IMG/VR virus record: IMGVR_UViG_3300017917_004266
Coordinates: 28,990 to 92,989 of that record
DNA: 64,000 nucleotides
Source: a virus
Reading direction: 5' to 3' (one strand)
Position 1 is the first letter of the stretch, and every line of letters begins with the position of its first letter. Positions 40,261-62,292 of the stretch are shown piece by piece. The notes under the pieces were generated by a model. It saw only the letters and a program-made list of their open reading frames with translations. It made no database searches and was not told the DNA's origin. Made by a program: the position numbers and the translations under genes.

Positions 40261-41420
40261 ATCGAAGATATGTCTGATATTACCATTTTTTCAATTAAAT
40301 TGTCAAATGAAATTTTTGGTTTCCAGCCGAGTTCTTGTCTTGCTTTACTCGAATCACCTAATAATAATTCTACTTCTGCTGGACGATAAAATTTTGGATT
40401 AACTTTCATTAAAAGTTTATATTCATCTTTATTATTTTTTAAATAATAACCTTCATCTTCTGGTCTGCCATCATTTACATAAATCCAATGACCTTCTATA
40501 CCAGCAATTTTAAATGCTTTTTCTACAAACTCTCTAATAGTATGAGTTTCGTTTGATGAAAAAACATATTCTTTTGGAGTCCCATTATAATTAGGATTAT
40601 ACTTGTCTTGATTAAGCATCATCCATACTCCTTCTATAAAATCTTCTGAGTCGCTCCAATCTCTTTTTGCATCTAAATTACCTAATTCTAATGGTTTAAA
40701 ATCTTCATTATTTTTCAATGCATGATATATTCTAGCTACATTTTTAGTTATTTTTCTTGTTACAAATTCTTCTCCTCGTCTTGTGCCTTCATGATTAAAT
40801 AACCATCCCTGAATTGCATAAAGATTATAAGAGTCTCTATATACTTTTATTAATTGTCTAGAAGCAGCTTTACTTGCTCCATATGGGCTTCTTGGTCTTA
40901 ATGGATGTTTTTCATCTTGCGGAGCATAAATAACATTTCCAAATTCTTCGCTAGAGCCAGCTTGATAAAGCCTACATGTTGGTTTATATAATCTAATAGC
41001 TTCTAGGATATCTAAAATAGCAGTAGAATTAGCTGCCCAAGTTTGTCTGGCAAAATCCCAACTACTAGCCACAAAACTTTGTGCTGCAAAATTAATAAAA
41101 TAATCTGGCTGTAATTTTTCAACAATTCTTGCAATTGCATGAGAATCTGTTAAATCAAAATTAATTAAATGAAATCTATCAGAATTAATATGATTAATAT
41201 TTTTATGATTATAGACACTAAGCCTTCTTACTCCACCAAATATAGTATAATCTGTATTATTTAATAAATAATCAACCATATGACTTCCATCTTGACCAGT
41301 TACTCCAGTAACAATAACTACTTTTTTATCTTTTATTAATTTAATTGCGTCTTCAATATTTAAAATATTGGCAGTATCTATTTTTTTACCATAATATGTT
41401 TCTTTTAAAGAATTACTCAT
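40257..41420 (-). CDS. gmd: GDP-mannose 4,6-dehydratase
   Basis: A 387-residue extended SDR. The NAD(P) motif is TGVTGQDGSHM, followed by family signatures GGVRRLS, NFAAQSFVASSW, AGSSEEFG, the catalytic SPYGASKAAS (Tyr, Lys) and NHEGTRRGEEFVTRKI. It makes GDP-4-keto-6-deoxymannose, the precursor of fucose, rhamnose, perosamine and related sugars. Slightly longer than average because of a 20-residue N-terminal extension. The epimerase upstream may act on its product. No promoter seen; it probably depends on the sugar operon. Confidence 0.9.
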   Translation of the reverse strand: MSNSLKETYYGKKIDTANILNIEDAIKLIKDKKVVIVTGVTGQDGSHMVDYLLNNTDYTIFGGVRRLSVYNHKNINHINSDRFHLINFDLTDSHAIARIVEKLQPDYFINFAAQSFVASSWDFARQTWAANSTAILDILEAIRLYKPTCRLYQAGSSEEFGNVIYAPQDEKHPLRPRSPYGASKAASRQLIKVYRDSYNLYAIQGWLFNHEGTRRGEEFVTRKITKNVARIYHALKNNEDFKPLELGNLDAKRDWSDSEDFIEGVWMMLNQDKYNPNYNGTPKEYVFSSNETHTIREFVEKAFKIAGIEGHWIYVNDGRPEDEGYYLKNNKDEYKLLMKVNPKFYRPAEVELLLGDSSKARQELGWKPKISFDNLIEKMVISDISSI

Positions 41421-41487
41421 TTAAAGATTTTAAATTTTTGAATTGTATATTTCCAATAAATATTTAATAAATTTTATTTTAAAAAAT

Positions 41488-42255
41488 CTACATGCATAAT
41501 TTATTATATACTTCTTTAATCCCATTCTCTAAGCCTATAACTTCTATAGGTAAATTACTTATTCCACAATAATCTTGTAATATAACATTTCTTTCTATAT
41601 TAATATGTACTTTATAATTAGCAAGATTATTAATGAAATTGGCTATATTTAAAAGAGTTTTTTTATTTTTATAAGAACAATCAACTTCCTTTTGTAAATT
41701 CTCATTACATATATAATAATTAATAAGATTCAAAAGATCTTTCATATAAAAAAAATCCATTAATTTATTAGCATGAATTAACATTGGTTGTTTATTTATA
41801 TATCTTAAAAGATTGGCTTTTATAAATCTTGTATCTAATTCATTTTCATCAAAAACAGCAAATATTCTTATGTTATAAAAATTATCTTCTTTTTTTATTA
41901 TCTCATTAATTATTCTTTTGCTTTCAGCGTATTGACTTTCGTGATCCCAAATTTCTGCGCCAGAACCAAAAGATATTAATTTACTAAATTTATTTTTATT
42001 TAATAAAAGATTATTAAACATTTTTAAATTACTATCTAAAACTGATGTATCTTCTGTTTTTAATCTAGAACCGCCTTTAATAGCCGTATGAATTACGATA
42101 TCAAACTTTTTATTTTCAAACCATTTATTTGTAGCATCAGTATCCTCTAAATCAAAATTTACTCTAGAGATATTTGTTATATTATGCAGTTTGGATAAAT
42201 TATTGTTGATTGATTTAGCTATATATCCATTACCACCAGTAACTAAAATTTTCAT
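41488..42255 (-). CDS. NAD-dependent sugar epimerase/reductase
   Basis: A 255-residue extended SDR with the dinucleotide motif TGGNGYIAKS and the catalytic pair QYAESK (Tyr, Lys). Length and the DTDATNKWFENKKFDIVIHTA region resemble RmlD- or fucose-synthetase-like reductases. It overlaps the cyclase stop by 4 bases. It may reduce or epimerise the keto-sugar made by Gmd or by the RmlB/RfbH pair; the sequence does not say which. Confidence 0.7.
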   Translation of the reverse strand: MKILVTGGNGYIAKSINNNLSKLHNITNISRVNFDLEDTDATNKWFENKKFDIVIHTAIKGGSRLKTEDTSVLDSNLKMFNNLLLNKNKFSKLISFGSGAEIWDHESQYAESKRIINEIIKKEDNFYNIRIFAVFDENELDTRFIKANLLRYINKQPMLIHANKLMDFFYMKDLLNLINYYICNENLQKEVDCSYKNKKTLLNIANFINNLANYKVHINIERNVILQDYCGISNLPIEVIGLENGIKEVYNKLCM

Positions 42256-43262
42256 ATAACTTGTTTTAATTCTTTTACATTAATTGGTATTTTTTGAAAG
42301 CCAAAGGAGTTATCCATTAGTATCATATTAATCGTTGAGTTATCCGTGTTCTTTTTATCTTTTTTAGATTTTTCTATTAGATTATTTTTATTTATATCTT
42401 TTAAAAGATATGGACTAAAACCTGCTGACTGTATTATTTTAGTTAAAGTTTCATATATATCTTTAGTCGTATCATTTGACAATAAACCAATCTTTGAAGA
42501 AACTTTATTTGCTAATATCATTCCAAAAATAACAGCTATACCATGAGGTATTTGATAGTTTGTTTCACTTTCTATTGCATGACCAAATGTATGTCCAAAA
42601 TTTAAAACCTGTCTTTTATTTAAATCTAGTTCATCTTGCTCAATAAATTCTTTTTTGATATATAAGCATCTTTTTATAGAATCTTGTAATTCCATAAGAT
42701 CTTTATCTATTAATCTATCCATGCCTGTATTAAATTGTTCGAAAGATGATAATCCGCCTATTAAATGTAATTTTATTACTTCTCCGAGACCACTAAAATA
42801 ATCCTTTGTCTCCAATGTTTTTAAAAACTCAGAATTTATTATAATTTTAGATGGTGGATAGAATGTGCCAATTACATTTTTAAAAGAATCTAAATTTAAA
42901 GAAGTTTTACTTCCTATACAAGAATCAGCTTGAGCTAAAAGAGTAGTTGGTACGTAAGTCCAATCTACTCCTCGAAATAATATATTCATTGTAAATCCAC
43001 AAATATCTTGAGTAATTCCACCACCAATTACGATTACCTTAGTATTCTTTTTTATATTCTTTTTTAATAACTCTTGGCATACATAAATAGATGTATCAAT
43101 ATTTTTTTTGCTTTCTATTGCTTCAATAAGTATGGGTTGTTTATGGAATTTATTTGAATATAGTTGATATATATTCTTATCCGCAACTACAAAATCATTA
43201 TCTAGATTTAAATCTGTCTCAAAAGAGACTGAGTAGTTTTTATAAAAAGAGTTTACTAACAT
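42252..43262 (-). CDS. 3-dehydroquinate synthase-like sugar phosphate cyclase
   Basis: A 336-residue protein with the full AroB-type signature: GGGITQDICGF, FRGVDWTYVPTTLLAQADSCIGSKT, KNVIGTFYPP, GLGEVIK (zinc Glu), NFGHTFGHAIE and IPHGIAV (zinc His residues). AroB makes dehydroquinate from DAHP; relatives cyclise other sugar phosphates (2-deoxy-scyllo-inosose, valienol-type). In this nucleotide-sugar cluster a non-shikimate role, for example a cyclitol for a glycan, is likely, but true dehydroquinate synthase activity cannot be excluded. It lies between an SDR and an epimerase with overlapping ends. Confidence 0.8.
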   Translation of the reverse strand: MLVNSFYKNYSVSFETDLNLDNDFVVADKNIYQLYSNKFHKQPILIEAIESKKNIDTSIYVCQELLKKNIKKNTKVIVIGGGITQDICGFTMNILFRGVDWTYVPTTLLAQADSCIGSKTSLNLDSFKNVIGTFYPPSKIIINSEFLKTLETKDYFSGLGEVIKLHLIGGLSSFEQFNTGMDRLIDKDLMELQDSIKRCLYIKKEFIEQDELDLNKRQVLNFGHTFGHAIESETNYQIPHGIAVIFGMILANKVSSKIGLLSNDTTKDIYETLTKIIQSAGFSPYLLKDINKNNLIEKSKKDKKNTDNSTINMILMDNSFGFQKIPINVKELKQVI

Positions 43263-43909
43263 ATAGATAATCCTCCATCCACAGATATAATTTGACCAGT
43301 TATTTTTGTATTTAAACTTAAGTTATAAACTGCTTCCGCGATTTCTTCTGGTTTTAAAAGTCTTTTAATAGGAATCATCTTTTTGATTTCTTCTATTTGT
43401 TCCAGAGAATTATTTTTGTAAGTTAATTCTGTTTCTACATAACCTGGACATATACTATTTACTTGTATGTTATGCTCTGCTAATTCCAAAGCCGAACTTT
43501 TTGTTATTGAATCTAATGCTGCTTTAGAAGCAGAATATATAGCTCTACCCTTTTTAGCTGTATAACTTAAAATGGAACTGATGTTAATAATATGGCCTTT
43601 TTTATTCTTAATCATATTTTTTGAAAGATTTTTAATTAATAAAAGAGGTGCTATTGTATTTACTTGAAAAGTATTTGCTATATTTAGAATATCTAAATCT
43701 TTTAAATATGAGATATTATTTATTCCAGCATTGTTAATTAATATATCAATATCATCTGTAAATATTTCGCAATATTTTTGTATAGAATTAAAATCTATTA
43801 AATTTAATTCTGCTTTATTTGGGGCATAGACTTTATGATTCTGTTCTTCAAATTTATTTCTTATTGCAAGCCCTATACCTCTAGATCCTCCAGTTAAGAA
43901 TACTTTCAT
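43256..43909 (-). CDS. Short-chain dehydrogenase/reductase
   Basis: A 217-residue classical SDR with TGGSRGIGLA (cofactor), NNAGI, SSILSY (catalytic Ser) and YSASKAA (Tyr, Lys), then CPGYVETEL. Short for the class (usual about 245). It overlaps NeuB and the cyclase by 4 and 7 bases, so it forms a module with them. Substrate probably a keto-sugar or cyclitol; it is not distinguishable by sequence from fatty-acid-type reductases. Confidence 0.8.
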   Translation of the reverse strand: MKVFLTGGSRGIGLAIRNKFEEQNHKVYAPNKAELNLIDFNSIQKYCEIFTDDIDILINNAGINNISYLKDLDILNIANTFQVNTIAPLLLIKNLSKNMIKNKKGHIINISSILSYTAKKGRAIYSASKAALDSITKSSALELAEHNIQVNSICPGYVETELTYKNNSLEQIEEIKKMIPIKRLLKPEEIAEAVYNLSLNTKITGQIISVDGGLSIC

Positions 43910-44991
43910 AATCCTCTTTGGTATATGCTCTTTTTAAGATTTTCATTCTTAGAGTATTCACAATCAATATCATCAATCATCATAGCTGCATCTTTTTTGC
44001 AGTCTTTATTTAAGATAAAACCATAATCTCCTAGCATTAATTCTCGAACTGATATTTGTCCTTTTTGTATGGGGATTGCTAAATAAATATCATCCTTGTC
44101 AATAGTTTGACCAGCTTTTAAATCTTTCTTAAAGTAAACTCCTCTTATATAATTATCTAAGAAATTAGATTCTTCCTCTAATGGAAGAATTCTTTCTTGT
44201 GAGGAGTATCCGCAAATTATCTTTGCTTTATGCCAAGCCTTAAACCATTCGTCTATTTCTTGTGGTAAAGCAGAATATTTTGAGATTTCTTTACCATCAG
44301 AATTAATATCAATGTGCTTTTCAAATGTTCTAGCTCCTTTGGCATAAGATGCAAGCATTGAGTCATATGAATTTCCATGTTCGTGAGTAGATAATCCTAT
44401 TGTATTTAATGGGTATCTATTAATTAGATAGTCAATTTGATTCAATTGTAAATCTTGAATTTTTGTTGGATATGTGGCTATACAATGATTCAAGGCTAAT
44501 GGAATATTTCTATTTGCAAAAAATCTAACTAAATCATCTGTATCTTTTAAGGATAAACCTCCCAAAGAAACTATTACTGGTTTTCTAAGTTCTGCTATCT
44601 TATTTAATAAGACCCAATCATTATTATCAGCGCTAGCTACTTTAATAATTGGTAGATTTAATTTATCACAAAAATCAACAGATTTTTCATCAAATGGAGT
44701 AGACATGGGTATCATGCCATGATGTTTAATACTGTCAATTAATGTCTGGTAGTCTTTATCAGACATCTTTGTTTCTATTGTTCTTCTTATATATCTAATA
44801 TCTTTTCTATCTTTAAAATCTTTATGAATAAAATTCTCTACATCTCTAAATTGAAGTTTAATTGCTGCTTTTACATTATTAAACTTAACAATTTTTGCAA
44901 ATTCGCTTACTATCTTTAAGCCTCTTTCTAGGCTACCTAAGTGATTATTAGTCATCTCTAGCACGAATAGATCTTCAAATATATTATTCAT
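43906..44991 (-). CDS. neuB: NeuB/SpsE-family sialic-acid-type synthase
   Basis: A 361-residue protein with the NeuB TIM-barrel pattern (VLEMTNNHLGS, AAIKLQFRD, MSTPFDEKSVDF, IKVASADNNDW, PVIVSLGG, LNHCIATYPT, GLSTHEHG) and a C-terminal SAF/antifreeze domain (RGVYFKKDLKAGQTIDKDDIYLAIP). It condenses phosphoenolpyruvate with an N-acetylhexosamine to give a nonulosonic acid. Differences: CSxYP is CIATYP, and no NeuA or NeuC partner is in the window, so the final sugar is unclear. It heads a block of sugar genes with overlapping ends. Confidence 0.8.
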   Translation of the reverse strand: MNNIFEDLFVLEMTNNHLGSLERGLKIVSEFAKIVKFNNVKAAIKLQFRDVENFIHKDFKDRKDIRYIRRTIETKMSDKDYQTLIDSIKHHGMIPMSTPFDEKSVDFCDKLNLPIIKVASADNNDWVLLNKIAELRKPVIVSLGGLSLKDTDDLVRFFANRNIPLALNHCIATYPTKIQDLQLNQIDYLINRYPLNTIGLSTHEHGNSYDSMLASYAKGARTFEKHIDINSDGKEISKYSALPQEIDEWFKAWHKAKIICGYSSQERILPLEEESNFLDNYIRGVYFKKDLKAGQTIDKDDIYLAIPIQKGQISVRELMLGDYGFILNKDCKKDAAMMIDDIDCEYSKNENLKKSIYQRGL

Positions 44992-45008
44992 AATAGATTA
45001 TATTAAAT

Positions 45009-46754
45009 TTAATTGAAATTGTCTGATATAAACATATCTGTTAATTCTCCAGGAATTATCTTTCCATTTTTATCTATACCTTTTGGTACTACTTTTGGTT
45101 CAAATGTTTCATTTTCATGAGCAAATATTTCGCATAATACTGGTTTATTTATATTTAAAACTTCAACAATAGCATTATCTATTTCAGAATTATTATTTAT
45201 AGATAAATAATCAATATCGAATCCATAAGCTATTTTTTTAAAAGAAGGAGTTGAAACGCCATTATTTGGTCCAGAAGCATATTCATTTCCTTTAAAGAAT
45301 AATTTCTGAGTCTGTTTTATAGAAAAATAGCCATTATTGTTAATAATAAATAATTTTATTGGTAAATTATAATATTTTAATGTTTGTAGTTCTTGCAAAT
45401 TCATCATTATACTTCCATCACCTTCTATACAAATTATATCTTTTTTATTATTAGCAAAACAGGCTCCAATTGCGGCTGGTAATCCATACCCCATAGAAGC
45501 ACATCCAACATTAGTAAAAAGTCTTTGATTTTCTTTTAATCTTATGGATTGTTGAGTTACTACGTGAGCTGCTCCATCGCTTGTTACTATTGGGATATTT
45601 GTTGGTAAAATTTTGGCTAACTTTTCTATAAAAACATAGATGCTAGTCTTATCTTTTAAATTATGGTGTTTATCAAAAACGAATCTATCTTCAAGTCTTA
45701 AATTTTTACAATAATTTCTCCAAATATTAACATTTGGTTCTTTGACTGATCTATTAATTAATGATAAGAAATTTTTAATATCAGCTTTAATTTTTATATC
45801 AATATTAAATTTATGTTTATTTATCTCATTTTCATCAATATCTACTATAACTTTTTTTGCATTTTTCGCAAAAGCATTTACATTATAACCAGTAGTTTTT
45901 AATATTAATCTTGAACCAAAAACAAGTAAAAGATCGCATTCTTGTATAATTTTATTTGAAGATCTTTGACCTAAGATACCATGTCTACCAACATAGTATT
46001 CATAACTTTCATTAACAGTATCAATTGCGCTATGGCAATTAGTCATAACAGGAATTTTTGTTTTATTTAAGAAATCATAAAATTCTTGTATTGCTCCAGA
46101 TAGTCTAATTCCACTTCCAATTACTATAAGTGGTTTTTTGCTTTCGTTAATTAAAGATAAAACATTTTCTAAATCTATTATATTAATGAACTCTTGATTA
46201 TTAGGTGGAGTAAAACTTTCTATTGATTCTGGATCTATATCTGCTCCTTGAATATCTAAAGGAATATCTATCCAAACTGGCCCTTTTCTTCCAGAGGTAG
46301 CTTCATAGTATGCTTTTTCTAAATGATATTTAATTGTGTTTTTATCCGTAATCATAACGGCATACTTTGTCATAGGCTTTACAGATTCAATAATTGGATA
46401 TTCTTGATCTCCTATTTGTCTGCATTTAGTATTTTGAATTGTCTGATTTAAACTAACTTGTCCAGATAAAAATAAACAAGGAATAGAATCAACCCAGCAT
46501 CCAAATACTCCATTTAAAGCATTGATTCCTCCAGGCCCAGTTGTAACTAATGCAACTCCTAAATGATTATTAATCCTGCAATAGCCTTCTGCTGCAATTG
46601 CACAAGCTTGTTCGTGATGATTACATACGTAATTGATATTTTTATTTTTACCTAGTGAATCTATTAAATGAATACATCCGCCACCAGAAACAGTAAAGAC
46701 TTCTTTTATTCCTTTTTCTATTAAAAAGTTAACAATGAAATCTGAGACTTTCAT
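45009..46754 (-). CDS. TPP-dependent acetolactate-synthase-like enzyme
   Basis: About 581 residues; I take the ATG at 46754, which overlaps the upstream stop as TAATG, rather than the in-frame TTG 6 bases earlier. It shows the ThDP family pattern: VFTVSGGGCIHLID, NHHEQACAIAAEGYCR (cofactor-activating Glu), VTTGPGGINALNG, a mid domain, and the ThDP/Mg motif EGDGSIMMNLQELQTLKYYNLPIKLFIINNN. Acetolactate-synthase-like enzymes in sugar clusters (YerE is the known case) add a two-carbon unit from pyruvate to a 4-keto-3,6-dideoxysugar. With RmlB-like and RfbH-like genes beside it, that role is plausible; a pyruvate-decarboxylase role is an alternative. Confidence 0.75.
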   Translation of the reverse strand: MKVSDFIVNFLIEKGIKEVFTVSGGGCIHLIDSLGKNKNINYVCNHHEQACAIAAEGYCRINNHLGVALVTTGPGGINALNGVFGCWVDSIPCLFLSGQVSLNQTIQNTKCRQIGDQEYPIIESVKPMTKYAVMITDKNTIKYHLEKAYYEATSGRKGPVWIDIPLDIQGADIDPESIESFTPPNNQEFINIIDLENVLSLINESKKPLIVIGSGIRLSGAIQEFYDFLNKTKIPVMTNCHSAIDTVNESYEYYVGRHGILGQRSSNKIIQECDLLLVFGSRLILKTTGYNVNAFAKNAKKVIVDIDENEINKHKFNIDIKIKADIKNFLSLINRSVKEPNVNIWRNYCKNLRLEDRFVFDKHHNLKDKTSIYVFIEKLAKILPTNIPIVTSDGAAHVVTQQSIRLKENQRLFTNVGCASMGYGLPAAIGACFANNKKDIICIEGDGSIMMNLQELQTLKYYNLPIKLFIINNNGYFSIKQTQKLFFKGNEYASGPNNGVSTPSFKKIAYGFDIDYLSINNNSEIDNAIVEVLNINKPVLCEIFAHENETFEPKVVPKGIDKNGKIIPGELTDMFISDNFN

Positions 46755-47707
46755 TACCAAATAAATTTATGTTTATAATATTGAACGATGTCTGGTATCT
46801 GCTTATCAAATACTGCTTCAGCTTTCCATCCTAATGTTTTTAATTTATCATCATTTAAAGCATATCTAATATCTTGTCCTGCCCTAGAGAATGAAAAATC
46901 AACATAATCATTGATATTAAAATCAGTATGATTTAAAAATGAACTTACAATTTTTTTGACTGTATCTAAATTTGACTGTTCAAATCCACCAGATATATTA
47001 TATATATCATTTCTTACTTCTTTTTCTATAATTTTAATAATTGCTTTTGCCGTATCCTCTGCATGTAACCAATTTCTTATTGGAGTTCCATTATTATGAA
47101 GCGGAACTTTTCTTCCTAAATTTAAATATTTACATGTTTTAGGTATTAATTTTTCTATATATTGTCCTATACCATAATTATTCGTTGGCCTAACTATTAT
47201 ATAATTTATATTATATGTTCTTGCCCATGCTAAAATTAACATATCTGCTGCTGCTTTTGTTGCTGAATATGGATTAGAAGGTTTTAAAATATCTGTTTCT
47301 AAATGAATTCCATTACTTATATCTCCATATACTTCATCTGTGCTAAAATGCAAAAGTATTGGTTTTTTATCTGATTCTTGTCTATAGTTTTTAATTAGAT
47401 TTAATATATTATGAACGCCATTAATATTAGAATGTATAAAATCATCACTATTGCTTATAGAATTTCCAACATGAGTTTCTGCGGCTGTGTTTATAATATA
47501 ATCACAATCATATAAAAATTTAAGATCATTTATATCACAATGGACAAATGAAAAATTCTTATATCTATTAAATTCATCTAATAAATCTTTATTTGCTGCA
47601 TATGTAATTTTATCAACACCTTTCACAAACCATCCTTTTTGTAAACATAATCTTGTTACATAAGATCCAATAAAACCTAAGCAGCCAGTTATATATACTA
47701 TTTTCAT
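46754..47707 (-). CDS. dTDP/CDP-glucose 4,6-dehydratase-like protein
   Basis: A 317-residue extended SDR of the RmlB type: TGCLGFIGSYV (NAD), INTAAETHVGNSI, HFSTDEVYGDI with the catalytic Thr-Asp-Glu, NPYSATKAAADML (Tyr, Lys), and VRPTNNYG. It removes water across C4-C6 of a nucleotide-activated glucose. Immediately downstream of the RfbH-like dehydrase and upstream of the TPP enzyme (overlap of 4 and 1 bases), consistent with supplying the 4-keto-6-deoxy substrate for 3-deoxygenation. Nucleotide (dTDP or CDP) cannot be told from the sequence. Confidence 0.8.
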   Translation of the reverse strand: MKIVYITGCLGFIGSYVTRLCLQKGWFVKGVDKITYAANKDLLDEFNRYKNFSFVHCDINDLKFLYDCDYIINTAAETHVGNSISNSDDFIHSNINGVHNILNLIKNYRQESDKKPILLHFSTDEVYGDISNGIHLETDILKPSNPYSATKAAADMLILAWARTYNINYIIVRPTNNYGIGQYIEKLIPKTCKYLNLGRKVPLHNNGTPIRNWLHAEDTAKAIIKIIEKEVRNDIYNISGGFEQSNLDTVKKIVSSFLNHTDFNINDYVDFSFSRAGQDIRYALNDDKLKTLGWKAEAVFDKQIPDIVQYYKHKFIW

Positions 47708-49026
47708 ATTGTTTTAAAGAAATCATTTACTACTTGCTCTACATAATCTAGTTGAATTTTAGTTATAACTGGACTTGTGCCTAAAAAGAAAGTGTCTGTT
47801 GTGACTTTTCTTGCAACTGGATATTTTTTTATAACATCCTCTTTAGGCATAATATCAGAATAAGCTGGTTGTAGCATAATATTACCAGCAAAATATGGGC
47901 GAGTTTGTATTTTTCTATCCTCTAGATAATTAACAATATCTTTTCTTTTAAAGGGGGTATTATCTTTAATTGTTAGAGCAAAAGCAAACCAACTAGGGTC
48001 AGACCAATCTGTAGCTTTTGGTAATATAAAATATTCTTGAAATTTATAAAATATTTGAGAAAGTCTTGCATGATTAAGTTTTCTTAGAGTGTTTATCTCT
48101 GGAAGTTTTTTCATCTGAACTAAACCTATTGCGGCTTGTAACTCTATTGGCTTTAAATTATAACCAATTTCATCATATACATATTTATGATCAAAAATTT
48201 CGTTTGGTAAAGAAGGAAGCCAATTTGCGAATCTATTTTTGCAACTTCCGTTCTTTAATAGATTTGCTTTTTTACCAACACAATAACATCCTCTACCCCA
48301 TTCACGAAAACTTCTTGCTACAATTTCTTGCTGATGAGTATTACATGCAACAAAACCACCTTCTCCCATTGTCATATGATGAGCTGGATAAAAAGAACAG
48401 CTCGCAAATTCTCCAAAGCTACCTAAAGGTTTATTATCGAATGTTGAACCGAGAGCATCACAACAATCTTCAAGAAGAATTAAATTATAATCTTTTATTA
48501 TCTCCATTAATCTTCTCATGTTTGGTGGATTACCTAATACATGAGCAAATGTTATAATTTTAGCTCCATTTTTTGCTTGTTCTTCTACTTGATCTAAATT
48601 AAGATTAAGAGTATCTAAATCAATATCTGTAAAAACTGGTTGAAATCCAACTTGAAAAATAGGATTAATTGTAGTTGGAAATCCAGCTATTGGAGTTATT
48701 ACTTTTGTTCCTTTCGTCAAATTGTAAAGTCTTTTAGATGTCATCGCTGACATCATTATTAAATTAGAACTACTTCCACTATTTGTCAATATTCCATATT
48801 CTTTATTTAAAAGTTTTGGAAATTGATTTTCAAAAGATATCCCTTTATCGCCAAGAACTAGCCAGCCATTTAAAAGACTTTCTATTCCAGAAAGATATTC
48901 TTCATTTGAGAAGTGTGGTCCAGCATATTGTACCCAATCTTTCCCAGCTTCCCAAATTTTATTTAATCTTTTCTCTGATAAGTATTCTGAGATATCAGAT
49001 AAAATTTTTATTAGTTTAGAGTCCAT
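47704..49026 (-). CDS. rfbH: RfbH/AscC-type [2Fe-2S] 3-dehydrase
   Basis: About 440 residues starting at the ATG at 49026. It is a DegT/DnrJ-fold protein in which the PLP lysine is replaced by His: SFYPAHHMTMGEGG, the mark of CDP-6-deoxy-xylo-hexulose 3-dehydrase (E1). The iron-sulphur cysteines are present: EDCCDALGS (Cys190), then after exactly 57 residues CYC, then a Cys in GSCKNRF; the last spacing is 12 rather than the 7 reported for E1. It removes the 3-hydroxyl of a 4-keto-6-deoxysugar. It needs an E3 reductase, not found in this window, so it may rely on a host or another phage flavoprotein. Confidence 0.85.
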   Translation of the reverse strand: MDSKLIKILSDISEYLSEKRLNKIWEAGKDWVQYAGPHFSNEEYLSGIESLLNGWLVLGDKGISFENQFPKLLNKEYGILTNSGSSSNLIMMSAMTSKRLYNLTKGTKVITPIAGFPTTINPIFQVGFQPVFTDIDLDTLNLNLDQVEEQAKNGAKIITFAHVLGNPPNMRRLMEIIKDYNLILLEDCCDALGSTFDNKPLGSFGEFASCSFYPAHHMTMGEGGFVACNTHQQEIVARSFREWGRGCYCVGKKANLLKNGSCKNRFANWLPSLPNEIFDHKYVYDEIGYNLKPIELQAAIGLVQMKKLPEINTLRKLNHARLSQIFYKFQEYFILPKATDWSDPSWFAFALTIKDNTPFKRKDIVNYLEDRKIQTRPYFAGNIMLQPAYSDIMPKEDVIKKYPVARKVTTDTFFLGTSPVITKIQLDYVEQVVNDFFKTI

Positions 49027-49033
49027 CAATATA

Positions 49034-54722: not shown

Positions 54723-54958
54723 TTCTTAAATTCTCCTGCGGCAGTTTGAATATCTAATTTATTTGCTGTTTCTTTTACTGCTATTGATCCTAATAAAGTA
54801 ACGATCAATAAAAATACTAATGCTAAAGAATAATATGTTTTTTCTTCTGCTTTCTTTTTGGCTCTATATTGATGAAAATTATATATAAATTTTTCTGTTT
54901 GTTCAGAAGTTGGAACATAATAAGTTTCTTTTAATAAAGTTTTCAATCTATTATCCAT
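54719..54958 (-). CDS. Single-span membrane protein
   Basis: A 79-residue protein: a cytoplasmic helical N-terminus of about 40 residues (RLKTLLKETYYVPTSEQTEKF), one membrane segment (YSLALVFLLIVTLLGSIAV) and a short outer tail. The plan resembles small anti-sigma or accessory proteins common beside surface-protein genes in PEP-CTERM bacteria. It overlaps the PEP-CTERM gene end by 8 bases. Confidence 0.5.
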   Translation of the reverse strand: MDNRLKTLLKETYYVPTSEQTEKFIYNFHQYRAKKKAEEKTYYSLALVFLLIVTLLGSIAVKETANKLDIQTAAGEFKK

Positions 54959-56885
54959 TTCTTCTCAATCTCCTAGCGAATAATAAAATAGCAGAACCAA
55001 ATACTAAAAGACCAAATGGAGAAGGCTCTGGTATTATGTTGACAGTTGATATATAGCCAAGAGTAGAGTCAGCTAATGTAGCTTGACTTGTATTTACAGA
55101 ATAAGAAACATCTTGAGAACCTGTTCTTGTTAAGAACTCATTATATGTTTCATATGTTAAGCCATTGAATGTTAATGTTCCAAAGCCGCTTTGAAAATAC
55201 ATATTATAAGTTGCATTTGCTATATCACTATTAAAATCATTAACATTAAAAAATCCAGCTTGAAATGTAGAGTTTAAACTACTAAGTAAATTATTATACA
55301 TTAAATTATAAGCGTTTGAATTTAAATATAGATTAACAATATTTGCAGATGTTAATGCTACTGTAAATGGCGGAGTATTTGTTATTTTTAATACGTCATT
55401 ATTATAAGATGTACCATTATGCAGTAAGTCGCTAGTAATCTCAAATGCGAAGCTCATTCCCCCACTTGGGTCTACTGCTCCTACGGTTAGTAATCCTGGA
55501 CTATTTCCTGGACTTACAATAGCATCTCCACCAATTGTACCAGCAATAATTCCATTTCCATTTAATGTTGTGCCTGTATTATTTGCGCTTAGAGAAGTTC
55601 CTTTGTATATAAAAACATTTCCTGTTCCAAAAGCAGATCCATTAGTATTGTTTACGCTAATATTCCAACCTGTTCCACTAGAATTAAAATATGTGTTTCC
55701 AGAATATGTACTAGCGCCATTAAATGCCATTGTCCTGCCTCCTACAGAACTTGAACTATTTGTAAATATTAAGCCTGTACTGCTATTAACAAATCCTCCA
55801 TAAATGGTAGTAGAGTTATCTACTTTGATAGATCTAGTAGCATTATTTAAATCAATACTACCACCAAGAATATTTGCCCAACTTAATCCTCCAATAGTGA
55901 CATCTCCATTTAACAAAATATTATTATTAATCATTCTAACTGCATCGCTATTGTCTCCTATGCTTTGGCTCTGGCCAAATGTTGAGCCTTGATTGAGTAC
56001 AAGTCTTGCAGTACCAAATGCGTTTTTATTAGCATATCCTAATTGTCCATATACATTAATATCTCCTGTAACAGTATTGCTTCCTCTTAATTCTACAAGG
56101 CCTGTGTTAGCGCTTTCATTGATAGATAGCGCTCCATCTGCAGATGAAGTAATGTCGCCAGTAACAATTAATGCTCTGCTAGTAGATGACCCTGTGCCGA
56201 GAATAAGTCTAGAGCCATTATTAATAGTAATATTACCATTAATTCTATTTGTTGTAGAAGAGTCTGTGATAGAAACTACTACGTAACCTGTACCTGTAGT
56301 AGCTATTGTCATAGGCACATTCACGACTGTCGAAATAGCGTTTGATGCTAATCCTATTCTAGAATTTACTCCAGTAGATGCATCTGTATTACCTACAATA
56401 GTTAGTAATGAGCCTACTCCACCATTAATAGGACCCGTAACTCCCAATGTCGCTCCCGAAGACCCCCAATTTAAATTTATTCCTGCACCTAAAGTAATGC
56501 CATTTGTGCTTCTAATATATCTATTTTGTGAAGATGTAGTTCCACTATTCCAAAAAGTATAACCAGAAGAATTTACTTGAACATTATTTGCGTATACAGT
56601 ACTACTACTTAAAGTAACTTGACCAGCTATTCCTTGAAATATAGCTACATTAGTTGGTCCCGTTCCCGCGCTTGTCCAACCTCCAGATACCGTTGTAGTT
56701 GTTCCATTAATATCTGTAGACCATGTTGTTCCTGTAGTAGTCCAATTTCCAGTACCACCAACTCCAGAAGTTGTACCATTAACATCCCAATATAATGTTG
56801 CAGCTTTTACATTTGAGCATAAAAAAACCGCAATTAAACTTGCGGCTGTATTTTTTAGTAACCTTTTAAATAGGTTTATTTTCAT
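54951..56885 (-). CDS. PEP-CTERM sorted surface protein with autotransporter-type repeats
   Basis: A 644-residue exported protein. N-terminus: basic start, then the signal peptide AASLIAVFLCSNVKA. Middle: Gly/Ser/Thr/Asn-rich autotransporter-associated beta-strand repeats (GTGNWTTTGTTW, YSGNTYFNSSGTG). C-terminus (residues 617-644): the three-part PEP-CTERM sorting signal, PEPSPFG, a hydrophobic helix (LLVFGSAILLFA) and a basic end (RRLRRNG). Such proteins are handled by a host exosortase, which cleaves and transfers them to the cell surface or a biofilm. No exosortase is seen here, so a host enzyme must be used. The 5' half is GC-richer than the rest (29 of 60 bases at 56401-56460), suggesting transfer. 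It lies in a late-type operon with a capsid-associated gene. Confidence 0.85.
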   Translation of the reverse strand: MKINLFKRLLKNTAASLIAVFLCSNVKAATLYWDVNGTTSGVGGTGNWTTTGTTWSTDINGTTTTVSGGWTSAGTGPTNVAIFQGIAGQVTLSSSTVYANNVQVNSSGYTFWNSGTTSSQNRYIRSTNGITLGAGINLNWGSSGATLGVTGPINGGVGSLLTIVGNTDASTGVNSRIGLASNAISTVVNVPMTIATTGTGYVVVSITDSSTTNRINGNITINNGSRLILGTGSSTSRALIVTGDITSSADGALSINESANTGLVELRGSNTVTGDINVYGQLGYANKNAFGTARLVLNQGSTFGQSQSIGDNSDAVRMINNNILLNGDVTIGGLSWANILGGSIDLNNATRSIKVDNSTTIYGGFVNSSTGLIFTNSSSSVGGRTMAFNGASTYSGNTYFNSSGTGWNISVNNTNGSAFGTGNVFIYKGTSLSANNTGTTLNGNGIIAGTIGGDAIVSPGNSPGLLTVGAVDPSGGMSFAFEITSDLLHNGTSYNNDVLKITNTPPFTVALTSANIVNLYLNSNAYNLMYNNLLSSLNSTFQAGFFNVNDFNSDIANATYNMYFQSGFGTLTFNGLTYETYNEFLTRTGSQDVSYSVNTSQATLADSTLGYISTVNIIPEPSPFGLLVFGSAILLFARRLRRNG

Positions 56886-56891
56886 ATTTCC

Positions 56892-57425
56892 TTACTCCTT
56901 TTTAAGTTCATCTAATTTAATAGACACCTCTGGTTTAATTTCGTTCATTTTTTTTTCTTTTAATCTTTGCACATATATCCAATCATCTGCAAAAAATCCT
57001 TCTTTAATTATTATACCATAAGTTTTAGTAACATATAATTTTATTTTTTCTTGATATTCATTTTTATTTCCAGCAGAAGCAATTGGCATTGTTCCCCAGT
57101 TTGGGTCATACATCCATAATGAATTAGCATATTCAAATATTGTTACGGCATGCCCAATTATCATATCTGGATCATCTTTATAAGAATATGTAAAACAATA
57201 TATAGTATTCCAAACTTCTGTATGTGTTTTAAGATAAAAATTACATTTAGAAGCCCAAATTAAAGAATCAACAAAACAAGAATTGGGTATATTAGTTACA
57301 GATGTATAATATTTAAAATTAAATCCCCATTTAAAGAAAAACCACCAAGATATTATTATCGCAACTCCAACTAATATTAGTTTTGATCTACCAAACCATT
57401 TTTTAATTTTCTTTTTGATTTTCAA
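56892..57425 (-). CDS. Membrane-anchored transglutaminase/papain-like protein
   Basis: A 177-residue protein with a basic start, one membrane segment (LILVGVAIIISWWFFF, residues 16-31) and an outer domain with a candidate catalytic triad: Cys50 in IPNSCFVDSLIWAS, His92 in IIGHAVTIFEY and Asp107 in LWMYDPNWGTM. The His-to-Asp spacing of 15 and the GHA..DPNWG wording are those of transglutaminase-like peptidases. It sits immediately upstream of the PEP-CTERM protein (6-base gap) and overlaps the capsid-associated gene by 23 bases. It may process or cross-link that surface protein or peptidoglycan; inference. Confidence 0.55.
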   Translation of the reverse strand: MKIKKKIKKWFGRSKLILVGVAIIISWWFFFKWGFNFKYYTSVTNIPNSCFVDSLIWASKCNFYLKTHTEVWNTIYCFTYSYKDDPDMIIGHAVTIFEYANSLWMYDPNWGTMPIASAGNKNEYQEKIKLYVTKTYGIIIKEGFFADDWIYVQRLKEKKMNEIKPEVSIKLDELKKE

Positions 57426-58479
57426 TCTTTTTAAGTTGAATTTCTGTTTTTCCTAAAAGGTCACCTTTTTTCCAAGTTGATCCATCATTTGTACATTCAT
57501 AAACTACTCCATAACCCATATCTTCTGGAAGTTCTCTAATTTCTTTTACTGTGCCTTCGCTGCCGTAATGTTTGCACATGGCATTAATGTTTTTAACTTT
57601 ATCTCCTATATCAAACATACAATGATGATCCATTGGTTGACATATCATTTCTTGAGCTTGAGCTTCTTCTTTATTAAACATTACATAATTGTGGATTGTA
57701 ATAATATAATCTTCTGCGAGCGCAGCCATTTGTTGTAAGAATGGCTCTGTTAGATTTTCTTTAACTATTGGATCTTCTAGCTTATTCAAAATATTTTGCG
57801 CATGAACTTGAATTGAAGTAATTGAACCAACAATCATTTCATAAAAATCTTCTTTATAATCTTGTAGTTCTTCCTCTGGGCTTTCAATTTCTTCTACGTT
57901 ATTTAATTCTGCAGTCATTAATTCGTTTTGATCAAATTCTGTTTCGCCATCCCATTCATATTCTTCGTTTAAATAATCATTAGCTTGTGCTTTTTTAATG
58001 GCTTCTTCTGTTGGACGATCTGGAGAACCTGGCCTTGCTGGACGATAATTCTTTCCCATTCTTTTCTTTTTTTGTTGAATGTTATACCATAAACCCTTAT
58101 TTTTAGCTTGAACATCTACTTCTAGTGTTATTTCTTCTTCTAAATTTTGAACTGATCCACAATTTGGTTTACCACATGATCCTGTGATTTTACTAACTGG
58201 TTTAGCACTCCACATTTTACAACTCCAATAATTTGCTTTCCATTTTGGACCAGGATTACTACAGCCATGTCTAGATCTATATGCTTTTCTTCTTTCTGGA
58301 TTATCTCTTTTAATTGACATATTTGGATCACCAAAAGTAACTTTTACAATATTACCTTTATCATTTTTAACATAAACACCAAATTTCTTTTTGCTTCCTT
58401 TTGGAAGTCTAAATGGTTTATTTAATGGTGCTTTACCTTTTTTGACTGCTTTTAATTGTTCAGAAAAATCTATTTCCAT
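57403..58479 (-). CDS. Capsid/maturation-associated phage protein
   Basis: A 358-residue protein. The N-terminal half includes KPFRLPKGSKKKFGVYV, FGDPNMSIKRDNPERRKAYRSRHGCSNPGP and YWSCKMW, a block repeatedly found in phage head-maturation and portal-region proteins (DUF5872-like), with paired cysteines that may bind zinc. A Pro-rich linker (KNYRPARPGSPDRP) leads to a helical acidic domain and a final small beta domain (FDIGDKVKNINAMCKHYGSEGTVKEI), which looks SH3/KOW-like. AAGTGTAA 12 bases upstream supports late expression. It heads the operon with the PEP-CTERM protein. Confidence 0.6.
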   Translation of the reverse strand: MEIDFSEQLKAVKKGKAPLNKPFRLPKGSKKKFGVYVKNDKGNIVKVTFGDPNMSIKRDNPERRKAYRSRHGCSNPGPKWKANYWSCKMWSAKPVSKITGSCGKPNCGSVQNLEEEITLEVDVQAKNKGLWYNIQQKKKRMGKNYRPARPGSPDRPTEEAIKKAQANDYLNEEYEWDGETEFDQNELMTAELNNVEEIESPEEELQDYKEDFYEMIVGSITSIQVHAQNILNKLEDPIVKENLTEPFLQQMAALAEDYIITIHNYVMFNKEEAQAQEMICQPMDHHCMFDIGDKVKNINAMCKHYGSEGTVKEIRELPEDMGYGVVYECTNDGSTWKKGDLLGKTEIQLKKIENQKEN

Positions 58480-58491
58480 AATCTCTTTATT

Positions 58492-58499
58492 TTACACTT
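58492..58499 (-). promoter_or_regulatory. AGTGTAA late-type motif
   Basis: AAGTGTAA on the minus strand, 12 bases before the ATG at 58479; start of the PEP-CTERM operon. Confidence 0.5.
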
Positions 58500-58504
58500 T
58501 TTAT

Positions 58505-58533
58505 TTGACAAAATACTAATAAAAACTTAATAT
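58505..58533 (+). promoter_or_regulatory. Sigma-70-type promoter of the structured RNA/nrdAB
   Basis: TTGACA (58505-58510), 17-base spacer, TAATAT (58528-58533). A start near 58541 would begin the structured RNA at 58541-58760. Confidence 0.55.
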
Positions 58534-58540
58534 AGTATTA

Positions 58541-58760
58541 AATAGCTTCCTAATAAAGCAGTTTTGTGGATAGTCAAATAAATCCTCTAATATCTTAGCC
58601 TTGCGATGGCAACGTCTATCAGGCTGACGACCATTAAAAATTCACTTGTTTAAAAGCTTGTGATGAAATGTAGGTGTAAGGGATGGCAAAATGTAAAGGA
58701 ATAACCTACCGCGTTCCTATAAATGCCATAGCCATCTTCAGAAGAAATGCTGAAGATAAA
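58541..58760 (+). ncRNA. Structured RNA or long leader upstream of nrdA, unknown class
   Basis: The 473-base gap 58500-58972 holds no gene. Plus-strand pairings: AGCCT/AGGCT (58597-58601/58621-58625); GTAGGT/ACCTAC (58670-58675/58704-58709); AGGAAT/GTTCCT (58697-58702/58713-58718), which interleaves with the previous helix as a pseudoknot; ATGGCA/TGCCAT (58683-58688/58724-58729); and an 8-bp hairpin ATCTTCAG/CTGAAGAT (58734-58741/58750-58757). GATGGCAA occurs twice (58605, 58682), and GCCATC at 58731 can pair with either copy. Base composition is higher in G+C than the flanks. It does not match B12, c-di-GMP, tmRNA, RNase P or T-box consensus that I know. It may regulate nrdAB or be a separate RNA. 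Confidence 0.5.
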
Positions 58761-58972
58761 GGAGTCAAAAGAAAAGTTGGCGAAGATATTAAATAAAATC
58801 TTATAAAATATATTTTTATGAGGTAAAGCCTGTTAGGATATCAAAGAAAAGTTATTATTTCATACACTTGATTAAATTTTTTTTATAAATGTTAATAAAA
58901 TTTTATTTTTTTCTTTTTTATATCTTAAATAAGATGTAACATAAGTATCTCGTAAATACGAAAGGTTTTATA
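58761..58972. other. AT-rich gap between structured RNA and nrdA
   Basis: Holds T-runs (58877-58884, 58906-58919) that may end an RNA, and a ribosome site CGAAAGG before the nrdA ATG. No open frame or further helix of note. Confidence 0.5.
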
Positions 58973-61225
58973 ATGATACATGTAAAAAAGCGTAATGGTA
59001 GTACTGAAAAATTTAATATAGAAAAAATTCATAGAATAATAAATTGGGCAGTAAAAGATTTAAGCAATGTAAGTCTAACAGATATAGAAATAAACGCAAA
59101 AATTAATATTCATGATGGAGTTACTACAAAAGAGATCCATAGATTATTAGTTGAATCTGCTGCTAATTTAATATCTGTTGAAAAACCAAATTATCAATTT
59201 GTTGCTAGTCGTTTATTAAATTATCAATTAAGAAAAGACGTTTGGAAGGGGAAACATGCACCAAGACTTTCTGAATTTATTAATCAGGGTATTAAAAATA
59301 AAATTTATGATCCTATTATTTTAGAAAAATATTCAGAAGATGAGATTAATAAAATGGGAGAATTTATTGATCACGAAAGAGATTATAATTTTACATATGC
59401 TGGAATCAAACAATTATGTGATAAATATTTAATTAAAAATAGAACTAATGGTAATATTTTTGAAACTCCACAGTTTGCATATATTTTAATTGCTGCTTAT
59501 GGATTTATATTTTATCCAAAAGAAACAAGACTAAATTATGTAAGAAAATTTTACGATGCTATTAGTAAGCATAAAATTAATTTACCAACACCAGTAATGG
59601 CTGGAGTAAGAACTCCAAGCAAAAATTATGCAAGTTGCTGTTTAATAGGAGTTGATGATACTCGCGAAAGTATTACCGCTAGTGCTACAGCAGTTAGTAT
59701 GGCTACTGCTAATAGATGTGGTATTGGAATTGATGTGTCAAAAATTAGAGCTATTGGGTCTCCAATTAAAAATGGAGAAGTTGTACATACAGGATTAATT
59801 CCATTTCTTAAAATCTATGAAAGCAGTGTCAAAGCTTGGCAACAAAATGGACTTCGTGGTGGAAGTGCTACTTGCAATATTCAATGGTGGCATTATGAAA
59901 TAGAAGATATTGTCGTATTAAAAAATAATGCTGGCACAGATGATAATAGAGTTCGTAAACTTGATTATACTGTTGGTATGAGTAAATTATTTTATGACAG
60001 AGTATTAAAAGATGAAGAGATTACTTTATTTAATACAGCAGAGATTCCAGAATTATATGAGGCTTGGGGTACGAAAGATTTTGATAAAATCTATAAAGAA
60101 TGTGAAACTAAGAAATTAAAAATTAAAAAGAAGGTTTCTGCTCGTAAATTATTTTCTTTGATCATCAAAGAGAGGGTCGAAACTGGTAGAATTTATATTC
60201 TTAACGTAGATCATGCTAATAATCATGGAGCTTGGTTAGATAAAGTCACCATGAGTAATCTTTGCACCGAAGTTATTCATCCAACGATTCCTTTAAATGA
60301 TTATCATGATAAAAATGGTGAAATTGGAATGTGCATTCTTTCAGCAGTAAATATGCTAGAAATTAAAAACTGGCAAGATCTTGAAAAGACTTGTGATCTT
60401 ATCGTAAGATTTCTTGATGAGATCATTGAAATTCAAGATTACTTTAATATTGCTGCTGAAAATTTTGCAAAGAAACGCAGAAGTCTAGGAATAGGAATTA
60501 CTAATCTCGCTGCATTTTTAGCTAAAAATGAATTAAAATATACTTCTGATAAAACACTTGTTGTATTAGATGAATGGATGGAGCATTTTCAATATTATCT
60601 TTTAAAATCTAGTCTTGAGTTAGCTAAAGAAAAAGGAAAATGTGAAAAATTTGATAGAACAAAATATTCAAAAGGAATTTTATCTATTGACACATATAAA
60701 GATAAAGTAGATGAATTATGCAAAAGAAAATTATTTCTTGATTGGGAAAACCTAAGAAAAGAAATAAAAGAATTTGGATTAAGACACTCAACATTATCCT
60801 CTTGTATGCCTTGCGAAAGTAGTTCTGTAATTCAATCTTCGACTAATGGAGTAGAACCAATTAGAAGCTTAATAACTTATAAAATGAGTAAAATGGGTAA
60901 ATTACCAGTATTAGTTCCTGGAGTTGGTAAGTATGATGATAATTATGAGTTAGCTTATGATTTTAAAGATAATTCTGGTTTATTAAAAATTAATGCAATT
61001 ATTCAAAAATATATTGATATGGCTATATCAACTAATGTGTACTATAACTATTCTCATTATGAAAATAATGTTTTACCAGATGCAAAAGTAATGAAAGAAA
61101 TTATGTATGCTTATTCTTTGGGTTTAATTAGTTTATATTACAATAATACAGATGATGGAGATAAAGAACAATTAATGAATCAAAAAGAAGATCGCGATTG
61201 TTCTTCTGGAGCATGTAAATTATAA
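58973..61225 (+). CDS. nrdA: Class Ia ribonucleotide reductase, large subunit
   Basis: A 750-residue NrdA. An ATP-cone occupies residues 1-90 (VKKRNGSTEKFNIEKIHRI). The active-site cysteine region is NYASCCLIGVDD near residues 218-229; NLCTEVIHP gives the conserved substrate loop with the radical-site cysteine and Glu; RRSLGIGITNLAAFLA and PCESSSVIQSSTNGVEPIR follow. The C-terminal redox pair is CSSGACKL. It reduces ribonucleoside diphosphates to deoxy forms, with NrdB supplying the tyrosyl radical. ThyX at 35260 uses the dUMP branch. It is preceded by a structured leader that may control it. Confidence 0.95.
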   Translation: MIHVKKRNGSTEKFNIEKIHRIINWAVKDLSNVSLTDIEINAKINIHDGVTTKEIHRLLVESAANLISVEKPNYQFVASRLLNYQLRKDVWKGKHAPRLSEFINQGIKNKIYDPIILEKYSEDEINKMGEFIDHERDYNFTYAGIKQLCDKYLIKNRTNGNIFETPQFAYILIAAYGFIFYPKETRLNYVRKFYDAISKHKINLPTPVMAGVRTPSKNYASCCLIGVDDTRESITASATAVSMATANRCGIGIDVSKIRAIGSPIKNGEVVHTGLIPFLKIYESSVKAWQQNGLRGGSATCNIQWWHYEIEDIVVLKNNAGTDDNRVRKLDYTVGMSKLFYDRVLKDEEITLFNTAEIPELYEAWGTKDFDKIYKECETKKLKIKKKVSARKLFSLIIKERVETGRIYILNVDHANNHGAWLDKVTMSNLCTEVIHPTIPLNDYHDKNGEIGMCILSAVNMLEIKNWQDLEKTCDLIVRFLDEIIEIQDYFNIAAENFAKKRRSLGIGITNLAAFLAKNELKYTSDKTLVVLDEWMEHFQYYLLKSSLELAKEKGKCEKFDRTKYSKGILSIDTYKDKVDELCKRKLFLDWENLRKEIKEFGLRHSTLSSCMPCESSSVIQSSTNGVEPIRSLITYKMSKMGKLPVLVPGVGKYDDNYELAYDFKDNSGLLKINAIIQKYIDMAISTNVYYNYSHYENNVLPDAKVMKEIMYAYSLGLISLYYNNTDDGDKEQLMNQKEDRDCSSGACKL

Positions 61226-61227
61226 TT

Positions 61228-62292
61228 ATGAAAAGTGTTTTAAATTTAAAAAATATAGATCATACCAAACAACCATTATTTTTTGGTGAAGATCTTAATT
61301 TACAAAGATATGATCGTTTTAAATATCCTATTTTTTTTGAATTATTTAAAAAACAAGAAGAATTTTTCTGGTGGCCTCATGAAATAGCCTTAAATAAAGA
61401 TCGTAGCGATTATAAGGAATTAGCTGGTCAAGAAAGATTTGTTTTTGACACTAATTTAAAATTTCAAACTCTTGGTGATAGTATGCTATCAAGAAGTATT
61501 CATTCATTAAAAGATTACGTAAGCAATCCAGAACTTGAGATTTGCATGAATACTTGGCAAAGATTTGAGGGAATCCATAGTTATTCTTATTCATATTTAC
61601 TTAATAATGTTCATCCAGACGCTAGTAAATTCTTTGATAGTATAATGGAAGATAAAGAAATAGTATCTCGCGCAGAATTAATTAGGAATAATTTTGATAA
61701 AATCCTTGGTGATGACGATAAGAAGGATTTGAAACAGAAAATATTTGATTGTATACTTTCTGTAAATGTTATGGAAGGTCTTGTATTTTATGTTTCATTT
61801 GCCTGTTCTTTCTATTTTGGATATCGTGGAAAAATGGAAGGTAATGCTAAAATTATTAAGTTTATTCAAAGAGATGAAGCTTTGCATTTTGCCACAACTC
61901 AAAATTTACTTAAAATTCTAAAAGAAGAAGAAAAGGAAGGCTTTACATCTATAGCTAAAAAAAGCGAAGATAAAGTATATGCATTCTACGAACAAGCCGC
62001 TAAAAATGAAATTGAATGGGCTGAGTATCTATTTAGTAAAGGATCTTTACTAGGCTTAAATGCTGAAGTTTTAGGTGGTTATTCAAAATGGCTCTGCGAC
62101 GCTCGTCTACGATCATTAGGGTATAAGAAAATATTTAACCAAAAGGATAACCCTATTGCTGGATGGTTAGATAGCTACCTTGACAGTAGCAAAGTTCAAG
62201 TCGCCCCGCAAGAAACTGAGATTTCTACATATAAAATTGGAGCAAGAAAAACTGATATATCTGATGATGATTTTGGTGATTTTAAACTATAA
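61228..62292 (+). CDS. nrdB: Class Ia ribonucleotide reductase, small subunit
   Basis: A 354-residue diiron protein starting 2 bases after nrdA. The iron ligands are visible in DTNLKFQTLGDSM (Asp), WQRFEGIHSYSYSYLL (Glu, His; the Tyr after IHS is in the radical position), MEGLVFYVSF and IQRDEALHFATTQ (Glu, His). The C-terminus ends in DDDFGDFKL, the peptide that docks on NrdA. It generates and stores the tyrosyl radical for NrdA. Residue order and length agree with class Ia; subtype Ia against Ic cannot be settled by eye. Confidence 0.93.
   Translation: MKSVLNLKNIDHTKQPLFFGEDLNLQRYDRFKYPIFFELFKKQEEFFWWPHEIALNKDRSDYKELAGQERFVFDTNLKFQTLGDSMLSRSIHSLKDYVSNPELEICMNTWQRFEGIHSYSYSYLLNNVHPDASKFFDSIMEDKEIVSRAELIRNNFDKILGDDDKKDLKQKIFDCILSVNVMEGLVFYVSFACSFYFGYRGKMEGNAKIIKFIQRDEALHFATTQNLLKILKEEEKEGFTSIAKKSEDKVYAFYEQAAKNEIEWAEYLFSKGSLLGLNAEVLGGYSKWLCDARLRSLGYKKIFNQKDNPIAGWLDSYLDSSKVQVAPQETEISTYKIGARKTDISDDDFGDFKL

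Follow-up and report, generated by a model that had tools for sequence, protein, structure and literature searches.

A probable stand-alone structured RNA gene in a lineage of uncultured phages

The nrdAB locus and the extent of the RNA

The DNA analyzed here, referred to as the window, is a stretch of 64,000 nucleotides from a 92,989-base virus record (IMGVR_UViG_3300017917_004266). Between a 358-aa open reading frame (ORF) on the minus strand (57403-58479) and the ribonucleotide reductase genes nrdA (58973-61225) and nrdB (61228-62292), whose product is 43% identical to its best named relatives, lies a segment for which a preliminary description, made from the sequence alone, had proposed a strong promoter followed by a structured RNA of 220 bases (58541-58760). 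The promoter, which is the top match in the interval 57300-59300, is corroborated by its homologues: the pattern TTGACA-17-TANNNT, i.e., both hexamers and the 17-nt spacing, is exact in 55 of the 63 copies with enough upstream DNA, while four further copies carry a variant hexamer or spacing, and in four group C copies outside the pattern (the groups are defined below) a promoter is visible by eye. The number of promoter-like matches in the same interval carries no weight by itself, as 12 were found where 11.3 are expected. We infer that the RNA is transcribed from this promoter, which is of the sigma70 (host) type. Sites resembling TTGACA-17-TANNNT also occur at 28764-28736 (-) and 33438-33410 (-), in the replication-gene region, and this likeness suggests that the RNA may be a member of an early class. 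No intrinsic terminator for the RNA was found in this region of the window.

The 220-base segment is indeed structured, although its limits were misplaced, as it represents the 5' two thirds of an RNA of approximately 315 nt that occupies about 58540-58856. Folding of 58541-58760 gives a z-score of -1.06, with 29 of 200 shuffled sequences folding equally well, because the 3' third of the RNA is absent from that segment; the corresponding values for 58540-58856 are -3.32 and 0 of 100. The 5' end of the RNA was placed from the promoter spacing and a conserved A(A/C)ATA start, and the 3' end at the point where conservation ends. The features of the promoter and the RNA are listed in Table 1.

Table 1. 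Promoter, helices and putative docking motifs of the structured RNA (window coordinates)
Feature	Position	Strand	Comment
Promoter	58505..58533	+	TTGACA 58505-58510, 17-nt spacer, TAATAT 58528-58533
Structured RNA	58540..58856	+	Based on homologues, folding z-score and covariation
P1 hairpin GCTT/AAGC	58545..58559	+	GCC/GGC in group C, CCGC/GCGG in group D
P2 hairpin GGAT/ATCC	58568..58585	+	Double changes: A 1, B 1, C 1, D 3
P3, 5' strand	58589..58600	+	Pairs with 58779-58790; long-range, closes the core
H1/H2 hairpin	58606..58634	+	ATGG 58606-58609/CCAT 58631-58634; CGTC 58613-58616/GACG 58626-58629; loop holds the LR strand
LR, 5' strand CAGGCT	58620..58625	+	Pairs with AGCCTG 58827-58832, about 200 nt away
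P4 variable hairpin TCAC/GTGA	58642..58663	+	Double changes: A 3/4 pairs, C 4/5, D 4/5, B 1/5
Pseudoknot strand GTAGG	58670..58674	+	Pairs with CCTAC 58705-58709; 96.4% of cells paired, 2 double-changed pairs
H5 ATGGC/GCCAT	58683-58687/58725-58729	+	Encloses H6
H6 GGAAT/GTTCC	58698-58702/58713-58717	+	Double changes in 4/5 pairs
P7 hairpin TCTTCAG/CTGAAGA	58735..58756	+	Double changes: 3/7 pairs in A, 2/7 in C
Putative docking motif, site 1, TCAAAAGAAAAGT	58765..58777	+	Directly after P7
P3, 3' strand	58779..58790	+	Duplex energy, double changes
P8 hairpin	58799..58822	+	A+T-rich in the window copy; double changes: 3/8 pairs in B, none in C
LR, 3' strand AGCCTG	58827..58832	+	Paired columns, duplex energy
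Putative docking motif, site 2, TCAAAGAAAAGT	58841..58852	+	3' end of the RNA

Homologues and distribution

Homologues were sought in viral loci anchored on NrdA, of which the best 80 of 181 were combined with the window's own locus; nhmmer detected a homologous element of approximately 350 bp in 48 of these 81 loci. Two degenerate patterns built on the element retrieved 95 and 18 viral contig stretches, respectively, and the element was present in 79 of the 112 new loci fetched in this manner (L082-L193), while the other 33, which returned no nhmmer match, were dropped as chance; among L194-L197 only L197 represents a real copy. Thirteen of the 128 matches were left out of the alignment, as one end could not be placed. 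The distinct full copies number 65, or 68 after the addition of L002, L009 and L068, and fall into five sequence groups, designated A (five copies, including that of the window), B (35), C (nine), D (18) and E (one).

Of 48 phage records, 37 carry the RNA, each in single copy, 36 of them at E <= 4e-19 and one (G006) at E 0.005; the latter carries a group E copy, for which an nhmmer match (1.6e-24) and the helices of the copy itself gave confirmation, while G030 (E 0.006) was unconfirmed and is excluded from this count. In the searched records of a more distant NrdA clade (78-79% identical), including the 157-kb L070/G029, no strong match to the RNA was obtained, and a DNA search of named phages returned short chance matches only. 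Bacterial and archaeal genomes yielded no stretch with a strict pattern and 17 with a looser one, none of them credible: L223, L233, L234 and L236 scored E 0.77-5.2 with the covariance model, and only L231 fell under E 0.01 (E 0.0038). L231 sits within an ORF of 972 aa, which we take to encode a SusC/TonB-like protein, an Rfam search on it returned nothing relevant, and it was treated as a chance match. The RNA was thus found neither in named phages nor, credibly, in cellular genomes, and within the collections searched it appears to be confined to one lineage of uncultured phages.

Fold and covariation

At least five helices, including one interleaved pair, had been described for the 220-base segment, and these are upheld, the pseudoknot strand GTAGG and its partner CCTAC crossing helix H5. 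The covariation across related phages for which the preliminary description had called was found in the core, in the long-range helices and as double changes within groups. Because the sequences are related (effective number only about 18) and the shuffle controls ignore relatedness, the following shuffle figures are not to be read as probabilities: across 28 diverse sequences 94.6% of the core cells are paired and the covariation score is 0.579, as against 74.0% and 0.224, respectively, after shuffling, and none of 500 shuffles reaches either the pairing or the score, while two of the five measures, i.e., pairs with both sides changed and further pair types, are not above the shuffles. When the partners of the core helices were slid as a control, pairing fell to 29-54%. 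All cells of H1/H2 (100%) are paired and five of its seven pairs have changed on both sides; P1 differs between groups and exhibits no double change inside any of them. Four rows of the per-group table of double changes were not used, A-P3b and C-H1 having been placed on a wrong occurrence and B-H1 and D-P8 not having been located.

Two helices connect distant parts of the RNA. The first, LR, emerged first in an unbiased search for paired columns, with six pairs that are paired in all sequences, four of them with a double change; it reads CAGGCT/AGCCTG in group A, AGGGCT/AGCCCT in group B, AAGACT/AGTCTT in group C and GGAGCT/AGCTCC in group D, and its duplex energy is -17.1 kcal/mol with its own partner as compared to -12.1 kcal/mol across groups. 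The second, P3, was noticed in folds of individual groups, its coordinates being read straight off the window sequence; half of its duplex energy is lost when its own partner (-14.5 kcal/mol) is replaced by those of other groups (-7.4 kcal/mol), and double changes occur within groups A, B, C and D. In the group E copy (L009) most positions differ, and the helices are restored, by eye in general and by energy for P3 and LR. Comparison of the groups thus shows a predicted fold that is compact, with the long-range P3 closing the core, an H-type pseudoknot inside it, and the H1 loop paired with the 3' tail through LR.

The duplicated word GATGGCAA, for which competing partners and hence two alternative conformations had been envisaged, fared differently. 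Both occurrences are present (58605-58612 and 58682-58689), and the word is found three times in the window where 1.45 are expected, a number that 18 of 100 shuffles reach. Only one of the 68 copies has the word twice, however, so that conservation does not extend to the competing partners. The homologous positions of the two words lie in separate helices that covary with separate partners. A conserved switch between them, on which the two-conformation proposal would depend, is therefore not supported, although the window copy by itself might switch in a manner that the other copies do not share.

Neighbouring genes and coding capacity

The place of the RNA in the window had suggested a cis-acting leader of nrdAB, i.e., a riboswitch or attenuator sensing nucleotides. 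A same-strand nrdA does begin 83-135 nt past the end of the RNA in groups A, D and E (1232 nt in L022), and read-through into nrdAB is therefore possible there. In groups B and C, however, the RNA and the same promoter lie opposite the nrdAB strand in every locus showing NrdA; the RNA is located downstream of nrdAB, or nrdA is outside the view. Furthermore, the next ORF is convergent in 10 of the 11 B and C loci examined, ending within 20 nt of the aligned RNA end, the exception being L092 of group B, where a same-strand ORF begins 38 nt past the RNA. The DNA directly upstream of nrdA is also similar where the RNA lies elsewhere (for example, in L004, L007 and L011), as is expected of a separate nrdA promoter. 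The position in the nrdAB 5' leader is thus not retained in groups B and C, and mutually exclusive pairings, which would depend on the doubled word, are not conserved. A leader function is consequently highly improbable, and the riboswitch reading is rejected for the RNA family as a whole on these comparisons, tracing of the RNA to genomes without the same neighbour having settled the question. A structured RNA ahead of a metabolic gene is not necessarily a riboswitch.

The segment also contains an open frame for a 37-aa peptide (MAKCKGITYRV..., 58683-58796) with a purine-rich stretch ahead of its ATG, and the transcript might be considered an mRNA for it. The chance of this appears negligible, since an ATG at that column followed by at least 30 codons occurs in two of 65 copies, the other copies having ATC, GCT, ACG or ACA at the start column, and the peptide has no relatives in named phages (best E 8). 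As a conserved gene the frame is refuted.

What comparison shows instead is an element that, judged from its copies, has no coding capacity and no fixed downstream gene, and that occurs once per phage record. An independent phage RNA had been named as the other option in the preliminary description, and it is this option that the data favor: the covariation-supported fold and the RNA's own promoter are both kept while the neighbours change and nrdAB, in groups B and C, changes strand. We consider it likely that the element is a stand-alone gene of this phage lineage for a trans-acting structured RNA, representing a new RNA family and probably serving as a scaffold or decoy.

A motif present twice in each RNA

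All 68 RNAs contain a motif of approximately 13 nt twice, after P7 and at the 3' end. Its two forms are TCAAAAGAAAAGT and TCAAAGAAAAGT in most A and B copies, TTAAAAG... and TTAAAG... in most C copies, TCAATTGGGAAGT and TCATTGGGAAGT in most D copies, and TCAAGGGAAAAAGT and TCAGGGAAAAAGT in group E; variants such as ...GGGAAAT, ...GGGAAGA, ...TGGAAAGT and ...ACTGGG are in each case present at both sites. Concordance between the two motifs is complete among the 67 parsed copies, whereas shuffling yields an average of 26.5 concordant copies and no more than 37, and all seven joint motif states are concordant; in L068, the sole unparsed copy, concordance was established by eye. A single discordant position was noted, an A to G change at site 1 in L025 and L117 (TCGATTGGG compared to TCATTGGG). 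The motif core AAAGAAAAGT does not occur outside the two sites on either strand of the window.

Internal base-pairing was dismissed as the cause of the duplication, there being no consistent complement to the motif inside the RNA. The phage tmRNA was likewise dismissed as a base-pairing partner, with duplex energies of -9.2 kcal/mol for a group's own motif and -10.0 kcal/mol for the motifs of other groups. An identical, rather than complementary, change at both motifs is the pattern expected if one variable partner from outside the RNA binds at each of them, and we infer that the motif pair provides two docking sites for such a partner. As the motifs change together and differ between phage groups, this partner is probably phage-encoded or phage-specific.

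Relationship to known RNA families

A search of the whole window against 4227 Rfam families at gathering thresholds returned no match, and a search of the window copy and two homologues up to E 10 returned only chance-level, sub-threshold matches to snoRNA, HOTAIR and csRNA families, in agreement with the earlier statement that the RNA lies outside known riboswitch classes. In the homologous loci Rfam returned two matches, both to neighbouring tmRNA genes. The nrdJ RNA (RF03034) and the Rfam riboswitches invite comparison, as ribonucleotide reductase genes adjoin the RNA in the window; they differ from it in having no Rfam match in the window, and the position before nrdA is not retained in groups B and C. 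The phi29 pRNA and 6S RNA are small, structured and trans-acting, with roles in phage biology or at RNA polymerase; they also had no match in the window, the comparison having been made through Rfam alone. No description of this RNA was found in the literature covered, in which subscription papers are mostly not included.

To our knowledge, few structured phage RNAs of this complexity have independent evolutionary support, and the best known, GOLLD and ROOL, have no assigned function. These are structured non-coding RNAs of phages and prophages with complex folds, that of ROOL including multiple pseudoknots, and they are often located near tRNA islands (PMC12286853). The RNA described here is likewise phage-borne, without an assigned function and complex, with a pseudoknot and two long-range contacts, and groups B and C have a tmRNA gene close to it, all of which would be compatible with an ‘ornate’ RNA that self-assembles into an RNA-only multimer. 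At about 315 nt, however, it is much smaller than ROOL env-120 (659 nt) or GOLLD (often over 800), and the available part of the description mentions no duplicated docking motif for either (PMC12286853). It also has no match to their Rfam models, and such an assembly seems rather improbable.

The tmRNA and replication-origin readings

Phage tmRNAs are approximately 390-420 nt long and contain pseudoknots. A complete tmRNA gene over the cut-off was detected in 34 of the 48 phage records (for example, L011 9625-10012 and L013 8853-9269), an example of the encoded tag being AKTAKYKGHISARVSLVEETASVA. No SmpB gene was found in any of the 48 records, and the phage tmRNAs therefore presumably use the SmpB of the host.

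The tmRNA (RF00023) occurs in the same genomes as the RNA and often adjoins it: in groups B and C its gene, where seen, lies divergently upstream of the RNA, mostly at about 234 nt (range 60-843). Furthermore, of the 37 records with the RNA 33 carry a tmRNA above the cut-off, as opposed to one of the 11 without it (Fisher p 1.5e-6). This association is a lead only, since it is confounded by relatedness and fragmentary records, and one of the records scored as lacking the RNA, G019 (to which L040 belongs), contains part of the element where its contig ends. These observations could indicate that the RNA is a partner or relative of the phage tmRNA that acts on ribosomes. The phage tmRNA is a separate gene, however, whereas in the RNA no tRNA-like domain (ARAGORN, Rfam) or conserved tag frame was found, and neither the window copy nor its homologues match the tmRNA family in Rfam. 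Kilobases separate the two genes in groups A and D, the motif does not pair with the tmRNA, and four RNA-bearing records, which like G019 are fragments, have no tmRNA. A direct relationship of this kind is therefore unlikely, albeit the least unlikely of the alternatives weighed here.

A replication-origin RNA, i.e., a primer or R-loop transcript, would be in keeping with the cumulative GC-skew minimum of the window, which lies at about 58 kb and adjoins the RNA, and with a local skew minimum at 46 kb in G001, which adjoins the RNA at 45.5 kb. In the group B record G007, on the other hand, the RNA lies at 96.7 kb, away from the minimum at 88 kb; moreover, the skew tracks the gene-strand switch near nrdA, which in the window coincides with the minimum at about 58000, and the comparison comprises three records only. 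An origin function is accordingly very unlikely.

Proposed role of the RNA

In the reading that we prefer, that of a trans-acting RNA encoded by its own gene, host RNA polymerase would produce the RNA early in infection. The 3' half of the RNA would then present its motif twice to a single outside partner, probably encoded by or specific to the phage, and the RNA would act as the scaffold or decoy of a ribonucleoprotein. A role in translation or RNA metabolism is a guess prompted by the recurrent tmRNA neighbourhood. More tentatively, and with somewhat less than even confidence, the RNA may represent a new class of phage RNA machine, i.e., a scaffold with two sites for a fast-evolving phage-encoded partner that forms an early ribonucleoprotein or decoy and possibly, together with tmRNA, controls ribosomes. 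At about 315 nt the RNA is compact enough for transcription, probing and structure solution, and from the form that the motif takes in each lineage one can predict which RNA the partner of a given phage should bind.

Other features of the window

The first ~90 residues of the 358-aa protein are matched by short proteins from phages of Roseobacter, Pelagibacter and Flavobacterium, some of these proteins being annotated as HVA1 family, and its gene is often near the RNA across loci. A sugar pathway is encoded at 40257-47707 (-), comprising NeuB, a 3-dehydroquinate-synthase-like protein and two GDP-mannose-dehydratase/epimerase proteins, and is adjoined by an aminotransferase gene (47704-49029). 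Finally, a Gly/Ser/Thr-rich protein of 644 aa without a Pfam match is encoded at 54951-56885 (-); its end, IPEPSPFGLLVFGSAILLFARRLRRNG, resembles by eye a PEP-CTERM surface-sorting tail, which is odd for a phage and possibly a hint as to the host.
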